A DNA stretch of 34,954 bases, taken from contig JACZQV010000009.1 in assembly GCA_022545545.1 (NCBI GenBank), forward strand, positions 1-34,954, read 5' to 3'. A model generated the notes under the pieces. It had not been told where the DNA came from. It ran no database searches and saw nothing but the letters and a program-made list of their open reading frames with translations. This DNA is from Pseudomonadota bacterium (GTDB lineage: Bacteria > Pseudomonadota > Alphaproteobacteria > SMXQ01). This document shows positions 16,966 through 23,472 of the stretch, piece after piece (position 1 is the first letter of the stretch; each line of letters opens with the position of its first letter). The position numbers and the translations under genes were made by a program.

Positions 16966-17382
16966 ATGTCCGTGACGCTGCCTCCAGATTACCGGCCGGT
17001 CGAGAGCGAGCCGTTCATGAATCCAAAGCAACGGGAGTATTTCCGCCAGAAGCTCCTGCGCTGGCGCGAGGATTTGTTGCAGGAAACATCCGATACCCTA
17101 CAGCACCTTCAGGAAGGCGGCTTGCAGGCGCCTGACATTACCGACCGGGCCTCGCTCGAGACCGATCGCTCCCTGGAACTCCGGACCCGGGATCGTGCGC
17201 GCAAGCTGATCGCCAAGATCGACGAGGCTTTGGAGCGCATCAAGGACGGCAGCTATGGAATTTGCGAAGAAACCAGTGAGCCGATCAGCGTGCGCCGCCT
17301 GGAGGCCCGTCCCATAGCGACACTCAGCCTGGAAGCCCAGGAACGCCACGAGCGAATGGAGAAGACCCGGCGCGACGACTGA
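16966..17382 (+). CDS. dksA: RNA polymerase-binding transcription factor DksA
   Basis: DksA acts in the RNA polymerase secondary channel with ppGpp. The coiled-coil hairpin (PKQREYFRQKLLRWREDLLQETSDTLQHLQ ... DRASLETDRSLELRTRDRARKLIAKIDEAL) includes the tip residues TDRAS. The globular part, GSYGICEETSEPISVRRLEARPIATLSLEAQERHE, keeps one cysteine of the four that bind zinc in E. coli (C-x2-T then I/V and E in place of the others). It belongs therefore to the zinc-independent, cysteine-poor alphaproteobacterial form. Start ATG at 16966 gives the family N-terminus (PPDYRPVESEPFMNPKQREYF). A dksA next to flagellar genes is common in Rhodospirillales. Confidence 0.94.
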   Translation: MSVTLPPDYRPVESEPFMNPKQREYFRQKLLRWREDLLQETSDTLQHLQEGGLQAPDITDRASLETDRSLELRTRDRARKLIAKIDEALERIKDGSYGICEETSEPISVRRLEARPIATLSLEAQERHERMEKTRRDD

Positions 17383-17415: not shown

Positions 17416-17680
17416 AGAGCACTATCCGGCCAGCTGGAAGCGATTTGATGGCGGCAAAACGGTCTCTCGGGTAGGAGCGGCGCGAAGCGCGATGTGGTTC
17501 ATCGGGCGAGCGTCGCGACGCACCCGAGGGGCCGTTTTGCCCCACCGGAGGCCGGGTTCTTTTGCGCCGTGGCGTCGTTGCGCCCCTTTGCCGATGCGCA
17601 AGCATCGCCATGCGGAGCGCGCCTAGCCACGGCGCAAAATAATCCCGGTCAAACGCATCCATCTGGCCGGATAGTGCTCT
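17416..17680. repeat. 265-bp inverted-repeat element with two hairpin arms (element 1)
   Basis: This fills most of the gap between convergent dksA and flgH. An 18-bp perfect terminal inverted repeat (AGAGCACTATCCGGCCAG at 17416-17433, its complement at 17663-17680) encloses two arms. Arm A runs 17453-17541: stem GGCAAAACGG/CCGTTTTGCC plus CTCGGGT/ACCCGAG and an inner CGATG/CATCG hairpin at 17490-17504. Arm B runs 17560-17639: a perfect 14-bp stem TTTTGCGCCGTGGC/GCCACGGCGCAAAA and an inner hairpin CGATGC-GCAA-GCATCG at 17592-17607. The linker between the arms contains CCGGAGG. A second element with the same plan lies at 21244-21510. It may be a non-autonomous mobile or palindromic repeat, a structured RNA, or a bidirectional termination device. 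No transposase is nearby. Open frames across it (for example 17324-17662 on -) encode only Arg/Pro/Ser-rich repeat translations. Confidence 0.8.
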
Positions 17681-17769
17681 CGGGCCAAGGAAGAGGCCGG
17701 CGCAAACACGCAGGCCTCTTTTCGACGCCGAACCAGGACTTCGATTCGAGGCCGGAAAAGGCCACCCGA

Positions 17770-18531
17770 TCAGAACGGTGATAGGATGTCCAGCACCTGG
17801 TAGCCAAGGCGAGGCTGCTGAACGTCCGAGATGAGGCCGCGGCCGCCATAAGACACCCGCGCTTCGGCGATCTTCTCGTAGGTGATGGTATTGCTCGAAG
17901 TGATGTCTTCGGGACGGATGATGCCGGCGACGGTCAGTTCGCGGACCTCGAAGTTGACCCGCACTTCCTGACGGCCATGGATAACCAGATTGCCATTGGG
18001 CAACACTTGCGTCACCACCGCCGCCACCTTTAGCAAGATTTTCTCTTTCCGGTCGATGGCGCCGGTTCCGGTGCTGCCGGTCCCGCCTTCGATGCCGATC
18101 AGATTGTTGTTATCTACCTGGTTCGGCAGGAATTTGTCGAGGTTGGCTTCAAAGCCGAAGAAACCGCCGATACCCAACGATTCATTGGCGTCGCGGGTTC
18201 GGTTGGAGCTATTGTCGAGCTTCGCGTTGTCATCGATATCGATGACCACGGTTAGGATGTCGCCGATCTGGCCGGCACGCTGGTCCTTGAAGAATGACCG
18301 CGCACCGGCGCGCCACAGCGAATTGGGCTCGTGCCCTATGGACTCGGCCCTGGGCATGGGGAGGCTGACCGGCCGGTAGGTGGGCGCCGCTGCCGGATTT
18401 TGGATCTGTGTCAGCGGTGGTGTTTCACCGACCTGTGACAGCCTCTTTGATAGCATGCAGCCGGAGACCGCCACGGCAAGGATCGCCATGGCGAGAAGCC
18501 GGTACAGTGGAATTCGGAAAAATTTCGTCAT
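17770..18531 (-). CDS. flgH: Flagellar L-ring lipoprotein FlgH
   Basis: FlgH forms the outer-membrane L-ring. A lipoprotein signal (LLAMAILAVAVSGC) places the lipobox cysteine at residue 25 when the start is ATG 18531, which has GAGG seven bases upstream; GTG at 18549 would overlap flgA. Family blocks are SLWRAGARSFFKDQRAGQIGDILTVVIDIDDNAKLDNSSNRTRD, KVAAVVTQVLPNGNLVIHGRQEVRVNFEVRELTVAGIIRPEDI and the C-terminal ISYGGRG-like ARVSYGGRGLISDVQQPRLGYQVLDILSPF. Length 253 is normal. It is the last gene of flgF-flgG-flgA-flgH, and element 1 lies directly downstream. Confidence 0.96.
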   Translation of the reverse strand: MTKFFRIPLYRLLAMAILAVAVSGCMLSKRLSQVGETPPLTQIQNPAAAPTYRPVSLPMPRAESIGHEPNSLWRAGARSFFKDQRAGQIGDILTVVIDIDDNAKLDNSSNRTRDANESLGIGGFFGFEANLDKFLPNQVDNNNLIGIEGGTGSTGTGAIDRKEKILLKVAAVVTQVLPNGNLVIHGRQEVRVNFEVRELTVAGIIRPEDITSSNTITYEKIAEARVSYGGRGLISDVQQPRLGYQVLDILSPF

Positions 18532-18545
18532 CGCTCGGTCCTCAT

Positions 18546-19481
18546 TCACGGCAGTATGACGGTCGAGTTCACGGTCACCCGGTTAGCGCCGGCGACCACC
18601 GCCTCGATGACGGTTTTGCTTCGGGTATTCATGATCTTAACGGTATCACCGATGGCGCCATTCTCGATGGCGCGGCCCTTGGAGGTCAGGATCATGTTGC
18701 GGGTCTTGAGTATCATGGTCACCAAGCTGCCCTTGGCGACGACGACGGGTGCCCGGACATCGCCATTGCGGATGGGCTGGCCGGCGCGCAATCCCCGCCG
18801 CGGCGTCTTGCCGATCAGACGGTTTTCATCGACGATGATGTTGCGCCGGACTTGGCTGGCCGGCAGCCTGATCCAGTCGATATCGTCCGTGGTGATGGTC
18901 TCGCCCTTGGGCACGCGCCGGTTCAGCACCGGCACCTCGATGACCTTGTAGACGCGCCCGGTGACGACCAGACTGGTGGCTGAGGGGTGATTGGCGGGCG
19001 CCGTTACGGTCGCGGTGAACCGGCCGGTACGCCTTTCATAATTCAGGTTCTGCACGGCCAGGGTCGCCGGGACACCGATGGGCAGGTGAATCGAGGTCCT
19101 GCGGTTGGTGAACTCGACCTCCGATCCCTTTGCGATACCCCGCTTCTCGAGTTCGCTGCGCAGGGCCGCATGGATTTCCTCGCGGCTGATGATCTGGCTG
19201 GCGCGCTTCACGATCACCCGATCGAACCTGCTTACCGGCCGCCAGGCGATGCCGTGGGAATAGGCTAAGGAGGCCAGCCGGGTGGCGTTGTAGACCGCGC
19301 GGACTCCCGGCGCCGGCGCGTGGGCGATGGCGACCGATGCCTTCTCGCCGATGCCTTCGAAGAGATCGCCGAGGCGCACGAAGTCGCCCGTGACGGTCAC
19401 GACGTCCCTGGTCTGGGCGGCGTCGGCGGAAGCCGCCGCGAGGGTGAGCGTCAGGGCGGCAATCGCCATTAAAGTTCGCAT
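18546..19481 (-). CDS. flgA: P-ring assembly chaperone FlgA
   Basis: FlgA is the periplasmic chaperone for FlgI polymerisation. A Sec signal peptide (MRTLMAIAALTLTLAAASADA, cleavage before AQTRD) is followed by an N-terminal domain. A SAF-type C-terminal domain comes next: VPVLNRRVPKGETITTDDIDWIRLPASQVRRNIIVDENRLIGKTPRRGLRAGQPIRNGDVRAPVVVAKGSLVTMI. The tail TVKIMNTRSKTVIEAVVAGANRVTVNS is characteristic. Its 311 residues are the longer alphaproteobacterial form. It starts 11 bp after flgG ends, and its stop lies 14 bp before the flgH start. Confidence 0.95.
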   Translation of the reverse strand: MRTLMAIAALTLTLAAASADAAQTRDVVTVTGDFVRLGDLFEGIGEKASVAIAHAPAPGVRAVYNATRLASLAYSHGIAWRPVSRFDRVIVKRASQIISREEIHAALRSELEKRGIAKGSEVEFTNRRTSIHLPIGVPATLAVQNLNYERRTGRFTATVTAPANHPSATSLVVTGRVYKVIEVPVLNRRVPKGETITTDDIDWIRLPASQVRRNIIVDENRLIGKTPRRGLRAGQPIRNGDVRAPVVVAKGSLVTMILKTRNMILTSKGRAIENGAIGDTVKIMNTRSKTVIEAVVAGANRVTVNSTVILP

Positions 19482-19492
19482 GCCATGCCTCC

Positions 19493-20278
19493 TTAAATCG
19501 TCGAGACCAGGGTGGACAGCATCTCGTCCGATGACTGCAGGACCTTCGAGTTCAGCTCATAGGCCCGCTGGGCGGCGATCAGGGAGGTGATCTCGGCCAC
19601 CATGTTGACGTTCGAGGTCTCGAGGAATCCCTGCAGGAGGGTCCCGAAACCGGTGGAACCCGGTGTGCCCGTAGTGGCGGCGCCGGAGGCGTCCGTTGCC
19701 TCGAACAGGTTGTCGCCCAGGGACTTCAGACCCGCCTCGTTGGGAAAGTTGGCAAGCTGCAACTGGCCGACGTTCTGGAGGGCCGTCTGGCTGGCGAGCT
19801 TGACCAGCACCTCACCGCTGTCGTTGATGGAGACCTCGAGCGCGTCATTGGGGATGGTAACGCCGGGCTGCACCGTCAACCCCTGGGAGGTGACGATGGT
19901 GCCCGAAGGCCCGATCTGGAAAGCACCAGCGCGCATATAGGCGGTGGTGCCGTCGGGCTTCTGGATCTGGAAGAATCCCTTGCCCTCGATGGCGAGGTCG
20001 AAATCGTTGCCGGTCCTCAGCAAGTTGCCCTGCTCGTGGATGCGGTACACCGAGCCGACCGTCACGCCGGTGCCGAACTCGGCGCCCGAGACTATGACAG
20101 TGCCCCCGTCCGTCGAGGTCGAACCCACCTGGATTTCCGTCTGGTACAGGAGATCGACGAATTCAGGCCGCTGACGTTTGAAAGCGGTGGTGTTCAGGTT
20201 GGCGATGTTGTTGGCAATGACGTCGACGTTGAGTTGCTGCGCGAGCATTCCCGTCGCCGCGATGTTAAGAGAACCCAT
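19493..20278 (-). CDS. flgG: Flagellar distal rod protein FlgG
   Basis: This is the distal rod subunit. The start MGSLNIAATGMLAQQLNVDVIANNIANLNTTAFKRQRPEFVDLLYQT carries the rod signature (ANNIANxNTxxFK), and the end NVNMVAEITSLIAAQRAYELNSKVLQSSDEMLSTLVSTI the matching C-terminal helix. Its 261 residues are the usual FlgG length and exceed FlgF. It starts 41 bp after flgF ends in the same operon. Confidence 0.97.
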   Translation of the reverse strand: MGSLNIAATGMLAQQLNVDVIANNIANLNTTAFKRQRPEFVDLLYQTEIQVGSTSTDGGTVIVSGAEFGTGVTVGSVYRIHEQGNLLRTGNDFDLAIEGKGFFQIQKPDGTTAYMRAGAFQIGPSGTIVTSQGLTVQPGVTIPNDALEVSINDSGEVLVKLASQTALQNVGQLQLANFPNEAGLKSLGDNLFEATDASGAATTGTPGSTGFGTLLQGFLETSNVNMVAEITSLIAAQRAYELNSKVLQSSDEMLSTLVSTI

Positions 20279-20319
20279 GGAATCACTCCTTCTTTCGAAT
20301 CACGCTGTTGATTCAAGCC

Positions 20320-21039
20320 CTAGGGCATGCGCCCCAGCCGCTCTATCGCCCGGCGCTGTCGTTCATGTTCCGAATCGATGGCCTTCTGGGCGGCTTTGTA
20401 GGCGCTCATCAATTTGATCAGGCGGGTAATTTCGAGGATAGGCTCGACATTCGATTCCTCGAGACTGCCCTGGATGACGAACGAACCGGTGGCGGGATCG
20501 GGGGCGGTCTCGGTGGTGAAAAGCCCGCCGCCGGCCTTCTTCATTCCTTCCGTGGTCGCGAAGCGGACCAACTGGATGCTACCGAAATCGCCGCTATCCC
20601 CGGACACGGTGCCGTCCCTGGCGATCGTTACCGCTCCCGCGTCCTCCGGGAGCACGATGGGCTGGTCGCCTTCGCCGAGAACGGAGTAGCCCTGGCTGGT
20701 CACGAGCTGACCGTTTTCGTCGAGCTGGAAATGGCCGTTACGGGTATAGCGCGGCCCTGCCGGTGTATCGACGACGAAGAAGCCGTCGCCCTGGATCGCC
20801 ACATCCAGGGAATTGCCGGTCTTGCTGATGCCGCCGGCGTAAAAACTCGTTTTCACGCCGGCCATGCGGGTGTAGGAGACACGGTCCCCGCGCTCGGGCT
20901 TGGCCAGGTGCTCGGCGAACAACAGGCGGTCGGCCTTGTAGCCGGGCGTTCCACTGTTGGCGACATTGTTGGCGATGACGCCTATTTGCTTGCGCATTAC
21001 CATTTGCTGGGAAAGCGCCACGTATGACGGAGTCTTCAT
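20320..21039 (-). CDS. flgF: Flagellar proximal rod protein FlgF
   Basis: This is a proximal rod subunit. It has the shorter rod-protein form (239 residues) with SQQMVMRKQIGVIANNVANSGTPGYKADRLLFAEHL at the N-terminus, a central GNSLDVAIQGDGFFVVDTPAGPRYTRNGHFQLDENGQLVTSQGYSVLG, and ESNVEPILEITRLIKLMSAYKAAQKAIDSEHERQRRAIERLG at the end. It is the first gene of the operon; the sigma-54 promoter at 21088-21103 leaves a 38-nt leader. The ribosome site before ATG 21039 is weak. Confidence 0.95.
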   Translation of the reverse strand: MKTPSYVALSQQMVMRKQIGVIANNVANSGTPGYKADRLLFAEHLAKPERGDRVSYTRMAGVKTSFYAGGISKTGNSLDVAIQGDGFFVVDTPAGPRYTRNGHFQLDENGQLVTSQGYSVLGEGDQPIVLPEDAGAVTIARDGTVSGDSGDFGSIQLVRFATTEGMKKAGGGLFTTETAPDPATGSFVIQGSLEESNVEPILEITRLIKLMSAYKAAQKAIDSEHERQRRAIERLGRMP

Positions 21040-21087
21040 TTCGTCACACCATCACTGATTGATAGATCCAAAATCCGGCTTCACCTG

Positions 21088-21103
21088 TGCATGCGCCATG
21101 CCA
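21088..21103 (-). promoter_or_regulatory. Sigma-54 promoter of the flgF operon
   Basis: The minus strand from 21103 reads TGGCATGGCGCATGCA, with GG and GC separated by exactly ten bases. The -24 box TGGCAT and the -12 box ATGCA both sit close to consensus. The predicted start is near 21077, 38 nt upstream of the flgF ATG. It is the third promoter of this form in the window. Confidence 0.7.
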
Positions 21104-21154
21104 AAAACATTTATCCTTTGATGACAAGCGGTTAAAGAGAGGGCGCGGGATCGG

Positions 21155-21207
21155 CGGCAGTTTATTTTGCCGACTTGGGTAGGCTTTGCCCGGCAGTTCG
21201 TACCGGG
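21155..21207 (-). promoter_or_regulatory. Palindromic activator sites upstream of flgF
   Basis: CCCGGCAGTTCGTACCGGG (21189-21207) fits the CGGCA-N5-TRCCG form and is centred about 121 bp upstream of the predicted start. A second inverted repeat, CGGCA (21155-21159) with TGCCG (21168-21172), has an 8-base spacer instead of 5 and is centred near -86. The second is a looser match and may be a variant or decayed site. Confidence 0.5.
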
Positions 21208-21243
21208 GCTCCGACCGGCGTCATGGATCCTGTACCCGGGCTG

Positions 21244-21510
21244 GTACTCACTTTCATAGAAGGGTGACACATCCGACGGCTTTGCGGGTTCTTCAGGCCC
21301 GGAGCGTGGTCCGCCGTGATGGCGGTCCATCACAAGGGCCGCGCGAGGTGAGCGTAAGAGCCTGCAAGGCCGCCCGGAGGGTCGCTTTTCGCGGCCGCCG
21401 GCGGGCGTATGTGCCGCTTGACGATGTCCGGACATCGCCGGCGCACCGCCTCCACCCCGGAGGCCGCGAAAAGACGATCATATGTATCCCCCTTCTATGA
21501 AAGTAAGTAC
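21244..21510. repeat. 267-bp inverted-repeat element with two hairpin arms (element 2)
   Basis: Terminal inverted repeats of 21 bp (21244-21264 and 21490-21510, 20 of 21 matching, core ACTTTCATAGAAGGG) enclose two arms. Arm A runs 21278-21371. Its stem, GGCTTTGCGGGTTCT against AGAGCCTGCAAGGCC, pairs at all 15 positions if three G-U pairs are allowed, and it has an inner hairpin GTGATGG-CGGT-CCATCAC at 21316-21333. Arm B runs 21385-21473: perfect 12-bp stem CTTTTCGCGGCC/GGCCGCGAAAAG and inner palindrome CGATGTCCGGACATCG at 21422-21437. The linker carries CCGGAGG. Size, plan and small motifs match element 1 (17416-17680) while most stem sequence differs. It lies between the flgF activator sites and the fliL regulatory region. 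No transposase or reliable gene is inside it. Confidence 0.8.
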
Positions 21511-22293: not shown

Positions 22294-23472
22294 ATGGCTG
22301 ATAACGATACCGAAGAAAACGCGGAATCCTCAAAGACCGACGACGAGGCCATGGCCGCGGAATGGGCGGCGATGGCCGAGGGCGCCGGTGACGACGACGG
22401 CAAGAGTGACGACGACAAACTGGCTGCCGAATGGGAGGCCGCCGAGGAAGACGGCGACACCGAAGGCGACGACGTCCGCGGCGATCCGACAAGCCGTGTC
22501 CTCAATCAGGACGAAATCGACAGCCTGTTGGGATTCGCCGACGACGACGGCAACGACGACAAATCCGGCATCAACGCGCTCATCAACAGCGCGCTCGTAT
22601 CCTACGAACGCCTGCCCATGCTGGAGGTCGTGTTCGACCGGCTGGTCCGCATGATGTCGACGTCGCTTCGCAACTTCACCTCGGACAATGTCGAAGTCAC
22701 GCTTGACAACATCACCTCGGTGCGCTTCGGCGACTATCTCAATTCCATTCCGCTGCCGGCCATGATCAGCGTGATCAAGGCCGAGGAATGGGACAATTTC
22801 GGCATCCTGACGGTCGATAGCGCGCTCATCTACTCCATCGTCGACGTGCTGCTCGGCGGCCGCAAGGGCACGGCGGCGCTCCGCATCGAGGGCCGGCCCT
22901 ACACCACCATCGAACGCAGTCTGGTCGAGCGTATGGTCCTTGTGGTCCTCGCCGATCTTTCCGCCGCATTCGATCCCCTGAGCCCGGTCAATTTCCGCTT
23001 CGACCGGCTGGAGACCAACCCTCGCTTCGCCACCGTCGCGCGTCCGGCCAACGCCGCCATTCTCGCCCGCTTTCGAATCGACATGGAGGATCGTGGCGGG
23101 CGGCTGGAACTGGTGCTTCCCTATGCCACGCTGGAGCCCGTACGCGAACTCCTGCTGCAGATGTTCGTCGGTGAGAAGTTCGGCCGCGACTCGATCTGGG
23201 AAATTCATTTGGCGAACGAGATGTGGAACACGGATATCGACATCGAGGCCGTCCTCGACGAGCAGGTCATGAGCCTGGAAGACGTCATGAATCTGAAGGT
23301 CGGATCGCGCCTCATGTTCAGCGTCAACGCGGACCCCAAAATCGAGTTCAGATGCGGCAACGTCCCGCTGCTGTCCGGGCGCATGGGACGCAAGGGGGAC
23401 AAAATCGCGATCCTCGTCGAGGATTCCAAGTTGGTCGATGCCGACGCCGTCGAGCAGGGGGAGGCATCGTAA
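22294..23472 (+). CDS. fliM: Flagellar motor switch protein FliM
   Basis: FliM is the C-ring protein that binds phospho-CheY and sets rotation direction. The CheY-binding peptide (VLNQDEIDSLLGF) sits at about residue 70 rather than at the extreme N-terminus. It is preceded by a 65-residue acidic extension in which DDEAMAAEWAAMAEG and DDKLAAEWEAAEEDG look like an internal duplication. The middle CheC-like domain (MMSTSLRNFTSDNVEVTLDNITSVRFGDYLNSIPLPAMISVIKAEEWDNFGILTVDSALIYSIVDVLLGG) and the C-terminal SpoA domain (VMSLEDVMNLKVGSRLMFSVNADPKIEFRCGNVPLLSGRMGRKGDKIAILV) are normal. Start ATG 22294 lies 20 bp after the fliL stop. Its TAA overlaps the next ATG. Confidence 0.96.
   Translation: MADNDTEENAESSKTDDEAMAAEWAAMAEGAGDDDGKSDDDKLAAEWEAAEEDGDTEGDDVRGDPTSRVLNQDEIDSLLGFADDDGNDDKSGINALINSALVSYERLPMLEVVFDRLVRMMSTSLRNFTSDNVEVTLDNITSVRFGDYLNSIPLPAMISVIKAEEWDNFGILTVDSALIYSIVDVLLGGRKGTAALRIEGRPYTTIERSLVERMVLVVLADLSAAFDPLSPVNFRFDRLETNPRFATVARPANAAILARFRIDMEDRGGRLELVLPYATLEPVRELLLQMFVGEKFGRDSIWEIHLANEMWNTDIDIEAVLDEQVMSLEDVMNLKVGSRLMFSVNADPKIEFRCGNVPLLSGRMGRKGDKIAILVEDSKLVDADAVEQGEAS

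Follow-up and report, generated by a model that had tools for sequence, protein, structure and literature searches.

Two palindromic sequences, E1 and E2, lie at either end of a flagellar operon in the window analysed here, positions 1 to 34,954 of contig JACZQV010000009.1 of the alphaproteobacterial assembly GCA_022545545.1. Both are in all likelihood (we would put it at roughly 0.86) copies of one non-coding, non-autonomous family of miniature inverted-repeat transposable elements (MITEs) found in one uncultured genus, with mobilisation by the IS630 family most likely for copies that bear E1 ends or a third kind of end, E3. Each is built as a nested palindrome of about 265 bp, in which a terminal inverted repeat, an arm A, a CCGAAGG-type linker and an arm B are followed by the closing inverted repeat. 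For copies with E1 or E3 ends an IS630-family transposase acting in trans is the most likely mobiliser, given the resemblance of these ends to that of the genome's own IS630 and the duplication of TA at YTAR. E2 copies, which occupy YTAR-like sites and show a net gain of 2 bp where an empty site is readable, probably answer to a transposase of the same TA-targeting class.

The genomes compared are the element's own (G000, a draft of 2.75 Mb in 196 contigs, 97 per cent complete), a second genome of the same genus (G001, with loci that match records JADFJG01 identically, from the metagenome-assembled genome of isolate B40T1L10) and a genome of another genus in the same family (G003). An earlier sequence-only reading of the window had offered two explanations for the pair, selection on structure or the dispersal of a varied family of palindromic repeats, and the latter is borne out by many copies in G000 and G001, empty sites, TA duplications and a match to IS630 ends.

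Copy number and end types

Against its own genome at E of at most 10, E1 returned 96 matches (40 of 110 candidates scored) and E2 149 (40 of 166), counts that include palindromic self-matches and part-matches. The pattern of the E2 end, with at most three mismatches, gave 105 hits and its reversed control none; E3 (AGAGCGGKTCTTGGTAGATAGGAA), which is found on copies with an E1 interior, gave 30 hits against 0 for its control. Among the retrieved loci there are 46 E2 end pairs (25 in G000, 21 in G001), 23 E1 pairs (8 in G000, 13 in G001, 2 in G003) and 8 E3 pairs (6 in G000, 2 in G001), and two of the 23 E1 pairs, which measure just 26 and 44 bp, are excluded from later counts. The two elements had been presented as a pair at both ends of the flgFGAH operon; both are real, but with tens of genome matches each they form no local pair.

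Further copies were found in G000, in G001 and, as E1-type elements, in G003. Full E2 copies are present in G000 and G001 alone among 61 genomes searched (at most 12 candidates scored in each), with short partial matches of 123, 30 and 28 bases in three distant genomes of that set, and no E2 copy was found in nine other genomes of the same family. With a longer query enclosing E1 and E2, E1-type copies were found in two of the six relatives tested (G001 and G003). Several G000 contigs terminate within element copies, and the family helps explain why a number of draft-genome contigs end in such repeats. A plasmid collection searched with E2 gave no match; E1 gave a single 63-base, 82.5 per cent match there, to its arm B, on an Agrobacterium plasmid (NZ_CP045856.1:265279-265340), for which no annotated feature is listed.

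Empty sites and target duplication

The window's E1 site is empty in G001, where the flanks are 93–94 per cent identical. At a second E1 site G001 reads GTTAAGATGG, and G000 reads ATTA followed by GAGC on contig C129 and GCTC followed by TAAGATGG on contig C16; the TA duplication is plain here, and rearrangement or misassembly is possible because the two G000 flanks lie on different contigs. TA stands on both sides of 15 of 21 E1 and 6 of 8 E3 copies, and in all 29 E1 and E3 copies a pyrimidine precedes and a purine follows. The elements are what is looked for in a MITE, being short, non-coding and dispersed, with terminal inverted repeats, empty sites and a target duplication, and the TA duplication at YTAR expected of an IS630-linked MITE is found for the E1 and E3 types.

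E2 is mobile as well. When the flanks of ten G001 E2 sites were joined and searched in G000, eight aligned across the joint, and four of the eight have a net gain of 2 bp beside E2 (clean at L130 and L248, with two bases split around the joint at L247 and with a diverged right flank at L256). The remaining joints hold a remnant of one E2 end (L251) or larger or unclear differences (L257, L246, L122). Among the 46 E2 copies, position −3 is a pyrimidine in 45, −1 is A in 43, +1 is T in 45 and +3 is a purine in 44; as TA stands on both sides of few copies, E2 seems to be of the TA class, though less strict in its dinucleotides.

At the window's E2 site G001 has an E1-type element instead, with TA on both sides and adjoining AAAGTAGGTACT, a leftover E2 end. 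This arrangement suggests that E2 was there first and was mostly lost, and that E1 was then inserted at a TA beside the remnant. No function at the flagellar operon emerges from these data, and with E1 absent and E2 replaced in G001 while the operon genes are in place, a conserved role of the two elements there is argued against. E1 and E2 types also abut at L118, L242, L254 and L225, and E2 copies lie inside E1/E3-type sequence at L024/L053, L113 and L126. Because the two genomes are about 93 per cent identical and offer both filled and empty sites, the order of such events is testable.

In two further cases (L015/L013 against L150, and L050/L034 against L173) the flanks of separate G000 contigs adjoin in G001 at element sites, which reflects either recombination between copies or draft misassembly.

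One core behind three sets of ends

Local alignment of the E1 and E2 consensus interiors scores 50.5, compared with 13.7 ± 2.4 in shuffles that preserve E1 pairing and composition, and none of 400 such shuffles reaches the observed value. In reversed orientation the score is 45.0, and E1 arm B matches the reversed arm A of other copies at 76–79 per cent, so that the two arms also resemble each other. Pieces common to both cores include TAGGAGCG, the GATG-loop-CATC tips, GCGACG and the CCGAAGG linker. Different ends on homologous interiors make this one family with three end types, and the earlier statement that the stems mostly differ in sequence is right only in part. A direction for the exchange of ends is, like the enzyme, something that we infer. 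The same two-armed core behind three transposon ends would let one watch a non-autonomous element changing its mobiliser.

Variation is greater at the tips of the arms than elsewhere. Mean column diversity there is 0.293 compared with 0.084 elsewhere in E2 (reached by 23 of 20000 random window pairs) and 0.366 compared with 0.150 in E1/E3 (522 of 20000), which is suggestive at most, as loops are expected to vary more freely anyway. All 18 inserts of at least 15 bp, in the 13 E2 copies of at least 275 bp, lie at the arm B tip hairpin or directly beside it (178, 190 or 192 in the consensus), and the larger ones are nested one inside another, with 42, 78 and 120 bp at position 178. A 42-bp module, M2, recurs in the E1/E3-type copies L112 and L173, after GCGCATC and, partly, after GGTGCATC, and so takes the same position beside CATC as in E2. 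Among long E1-family copies, E2-like sequence is present in L170, and arm A of L236 holds an extra 16 bp. The modules M1, M4 and M5 are also present outside E1/E2-family elements.

It is conceivable, though on balance we think it unlikely, that the conserved unit is the hairpin core itself, which would be joined to unrelated ends, be served by different transposases and so spread while its original mobiliser dies. Such a core might also grow inward: inserts of 30 to 120 bp, composed of small palindromes, are found at the shared GATG-loop-CATC tip hairpins in both families, as though insertion were aimed at hairpins extruded in cruciform or single-stranded DNA, and the hypervariable tip loops look as though they had been opened and rejoined repeatedly.

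Candidate mobilisers

One DDE_3 match was found in the own genome, below the family cut-off and at the edge of contig C179. The two open reading frames (ORFs) at this locus, L217, match the NCBIfam IS630 transposase model NF033545 at 5.8e-18 (65 bits) and 4.6e-9 (36 bits), under the cut-off of 100, as the gene runs off the end of the contig. In Pfam the first ORF matches HTH_Tnp_IS630 at 7.9e-8, above cut-off, and the second DDE_3 at 4.6e-4, below it. The two frames overlap at a T run, and the transposase may be made by frameshifting or may be broken. The end of this IS630 is TAGAGCGGTTTCAATGAACGCGGAATCAATTTGA; aligned without gaps and with the TA included, E3 shares 24 of 34 bases with it and E1 21 of 34, concentrated at both edges, so that the ends of the E1 and E3 types match those of the genome's IS630 in the manner of an IS630-linked MITE. 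A second IS630 fragment was found in G001, at a contig end. Searches for an autonomous partner with E2 ends (GTACTTACTTTCATAG) found none. The L217 fragment ends beside a putative sigma-factor-like coding sequence.

Folding and pairing

E1 and E2 each fold as a closing stem with two arms, and the shared plan that had been read from the sequence, of closing repeat, arm A, linker and arm B, is recovered in both. Minimum free energy z-scores are −14.7 for E1 and −10.6 for E2 on the plus strand and −12.0 and −9.4 on the minus strand, and none of 200 dinucleotide shuffles was as stable as the element in any of the four folds.

Pairs altered on both sides number 8 of 89 in E2, compared with 3.3 in shuffles, and 32 of 96 in E1/E3, compared with 20.0, with slid controls giving 0–5 and 1–7, respectively. 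Of the 32, fifteen fall within the terminal stem, where they mostly reflect the difference between E1 and E3 ends and most likely amount to one block swap. Further pair types number 34 against 30.6 shuffled in E2 and 47 against 47.7 in E1/E3, where there is no excess.

The bearing of G-U pairs on strand was considered in several ways. In columns folded without G-U pairs, G-T and A-C columns number 15 and 20 in E2 and 12 and 10 in E1/E3; an earlier count by cells, which share ancestry, had favoured G-T in two of three sets (130 against 95, 38 against 20 and 8 against 9). With G-U allowed, columns with any such pair number 23 on the plus and 19 on the minus strand in E2 and 15 and 11 in E1/E3, and those with a G-U majority 7 and 3 in E2 and 5 and 2 in E1/E3. 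The E1/E3 and E2 families are homologous and hence give no independent votes in this test, and we read the asymmetry as not significant, with a mild tilt to the plus strand. Without a significant strand difference at G-U positions, selection on an RNA is not demonstrated. Selection on structure, whether of RNA or of single-stranded DNA, is accordingly weakly supported, with the excess of both-side changes speaking for it and the lack of significant G-U strand bias against it. Retained pairing is by itself no evidence for an RNA, and palindromic DNA of a mobile element, its complementarity kept as DNA, suffices to account for the pairing data. Pairing would be maintained because a transposase requires matching ends and probably also because palindromic DNA is prone to correction or exchange in blocks.

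Alternative explanations

Several observations weigh against a TA-targeting MITE family with IS630 as mobiliser. The target bases of the window's E1 are unrecoverable, its flanks being CA and TC (most other E1 copies have TA on both sides) and G001 reading TCTT. When G000 E2 sites were sought in G001, four of ten aligned across the joint and none of the four had a clean 2-bp gain; the empty allele of L035 carries a 12-nt hairpin, and no clear reading is possible at L051, L046 and L044. Just 8 of 46 E2 copies have TA on both sides, with TA and TG at 14 and CA and TA at 8, and k-mer agreement by itself revealed no convincing duplication for E2 (at best 7 of 46 against 4.6 expected). Compared with the IS630 end, E2 ends agree at 11 of 34 bases, which is the background level and not the match expected of an IS630-linked MITE, and IS630 was seen solely as fragments at the ends of contigs. 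The mild plus-strand excess of G-U pairs (12 majority columns against 5) also leaves room for an RNA role.

If E1 and E2 were structured RNA genes or cis-regulatory RNAs that selection preserves on either side of the flagellar operon, this would agree with their strong folding, with both-side changes in excess of shuffles and with a plus strand that folds more stably than the minus in 16 of 16 E1, 8 of 8 E3 and 23 of 32 E2 copies. We nevertheless consider it improbable, as the copies are scattered across many contigs, the G-T and A-C columns given above (15 to 20 and 12 to 10) show no significant strand bias, the window has no Rfam match at gathering scores, and G001 has the operon genes, yet its E1 site is empty and its E2 site holds an E1-type element with an E2 remnant. 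It is very improbable that E2 is instead a transposon that replaces stem-loops, of the sort of IS1272, which belongs to the IS1182 family. Replacement of an inverted repeat without duplication is described for IS1272 in a passage of PMC5678879, and at L035/L260, in the place taken by E2 in the filled allele, the empty allele does have a hairpin of 12 nt, AGGC-AAAC-GCCT. Against this one possible case stand four further E2 sites where a net 2 bp was gained and the empty allele lacks an extra hairpin. The flanks of 43–44 copies are no more complementary than mismatched flanks (p from 0.15 to 0.84 in four settings), with no excess around E2, E1 or E3, and DUF772 had no match in either of the two genomes searched.

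The least probable of these alternatives would make the family a REP/BIME system with a RAYT tyrosine transposase as its mobiliser. Its appeal lies in the mosaic palindromes, in the 30- to 42-bp palindromic modules that are nested at arm tips and sometimes free-standing, and in the single RAYT-like Y1_Tnp gene of the own genome (L218; G000:C86:715-1050). A DDE transposase is instead in keeping with terminal repeats that are sharply bounded, with duplicated TA and with empty sites, and in 2550 bases around Y1_Tnp, with at most four mismatches, there were three scattered E1-end hits and no E2 or E3 ends. The Y1_Tnp gene might be connected with the small palindromes that stand free, and not with E1 and E2.

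Elements and neighbours in the window

Table 1. Features of E1 and E2 and of the genes around them in the window.
Feature	Coordinates	Strand	Remarks
E1, MITE copy, E1-type ends (GAGCACTATCCGGCC)	17417..17679	+	263 bp, GAGC..GCTC
E1 left terminal inverted repeat	17417..17445	+	complementary arm reaches 17413
E1 arm A	17453..17541	+	tip hairpin CGATG-TGGTT-CATCG
E1 linker CCGGAGG	17545..17551	+	family consensus CCGAAGG
E1 arm B	17552..17650	+	tip hairpin CGATG-CGCAAG-CATCG
E1 right terminal inverted repeat	17651..17679	+	complementary arm reaches 17683
E2, MITE copy, E2-type ends (GTACTCACTTTCATAG)	21244..21510	+	267 bp, GTAC..GTAC
E2 left terminal inverted repeat	21244..21272	+	
E2 arm A	21277..21372	+	tip hairpin TGATG-GCGGTC-CATCA
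E2 linker CCGGAGG	21374..21380	+	other copies mostly CCC-NNN-GGG, commonest CCC-GAA-GGG
E2 arm B	21380..21479	+	tip hairpin CGATG-TCCGGA-CATCG; other copies carry extra palindromic modules here
E2 right terminal inverted repeat	21482..21510	+	
dksA	16966-17382	+	Pfam
flgH, flgA, two flagellar rod proteins	17770-21039	-	Pfam; names flgG and flgF from the sequence-only reading
fliM	22294-23472	+	Pfam

The limits first proposed for the two elements are correct to 1–2 bp (Table 1). The terminal repeats are present as described, and their length had been understated: they extend over 33 nt with 88 per cent complementarity in E1 and 29 nt with 90 per cent in E2, rather than 18–21 bp, and the arms are likewise marked by inverted repeats. 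CCGGAGG is indeed seen in both linkers, and it varies among other copies, for which the consensus in both families is CCGAAGG. Element G+C is 62–63 per cent. E1 lies between two converging genes and E2 upstream of flgF. Across the family, by a rough GC-frame heuristic, a likely ORF runs across one of the 36 copies whose flanks are long enough, and the 34 copies with a gene called on both sides divide into 16 tandem, 14 divergent and 4 convergent settings. Three ORFs that overlap E1 or E2 were tested and gave no Pfam match at E 0.001, and ORFs inside the elements should not be taken for proteins.

Smaller relatives of the elements were also seen. Palindromes of 31 bp (AGAGCGGKTCTTGGTAGATAGGAACCGCTCT, some with few changes) occur near position 1501 of L096, L098, L105, L107, L109, L114 and L116; this is the smallest form with E3 ends, and it is missing from G001 at one site (L107 compared with L151). 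Lone E2 ends (TTAGTACTTACTTTCATAGGAGGGTGA..) are found at L065 and L085, near 1501, and at L069, L079 and L285. Some of them may lie just before start codons, where GGAGG could be used as a ribosome site. G001 has a full E2 where L285 has a lone end, so that lone ends can be deletion remnants. At L072:1461-1523 the 20-bp E2-end repeat stands three times in tandem (CCAGTACTTACTTTCATAGG, one with a change). The module M4, a 41-bp palindrome, is 100 per cent identical at L072:1693-1733, L174:6871-6911 and L173:5955-5995, one of these apparently outside any E1/E2 element.

Comparison with known systems

A literature search, in which subscription journals were mostly uncovered, recognised no paper on the E1 or E2 sequences among its top-ranked matches, and the words IS630, nested and mosaic are absent from the review PMC10969869. 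The comparison that follows draws on passages of the published accounts. Among known elements the IS630-linked MITEs come closest. Their example, the repeat unit of pneumococcus, RUP, is a simple MITE of 107 bp linked to IS630-Spn1 (PMC2229807; PMC3049150), and like it the present family is non-coding and intergenic, inserts at TA, has ends that resemble an IS630 of the same genome and numbers about a hundred copies. It differs from RUP in its length of about 265 bp, its two arms with a linker, its three kinds of ends and its G+C of 62–63 per cent. Modular construction around a shared middle is known from the BOX elements of streptococci, where in S. suis boxA/C or boxE/F surround boxB, but these have tandem boxB arrays and not nested hairpins (PMC3049150). 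The Correia/NEMIS elements of Neisseria have terminal repeats of about 24–26 bp, TA at their termini and structured transcripts (PMC2229807; PMC3049150), but they measure 107 or 155 bp and the passages concerned describe no two-arm core.

The nearest likeness in architecture is with the CIR repeats of Caulobacter and Brucella, intergenic repeats of Alphaproteobacteria in which a linker joins two long hairpin arms, an arrangement described as unlike other bacterial repeats (PMC2229807). Compared by description, however, CIRs are about 110 bp long, are listed without terminal inverted repeats and have GANTC at the loop (PMC2229807). E1 and E2, at about 265 bp and with long terminal repeats, do not belong among them; GANTC is found in 0 of 40 E2 copies, and in 14 of 17 E1 and 6 of 8 E3 copies it lies mostly in the terminal stem region. 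Set beside these accounts, MITEs that have IS630-like ends and insert at TA are known, and what is new is that terminal repeats form a closing stem around the arms and linker, in an element more than twice as long. The family is distinctive in that an unusually elaborate nested-hairpin body is found with three sets of ends.

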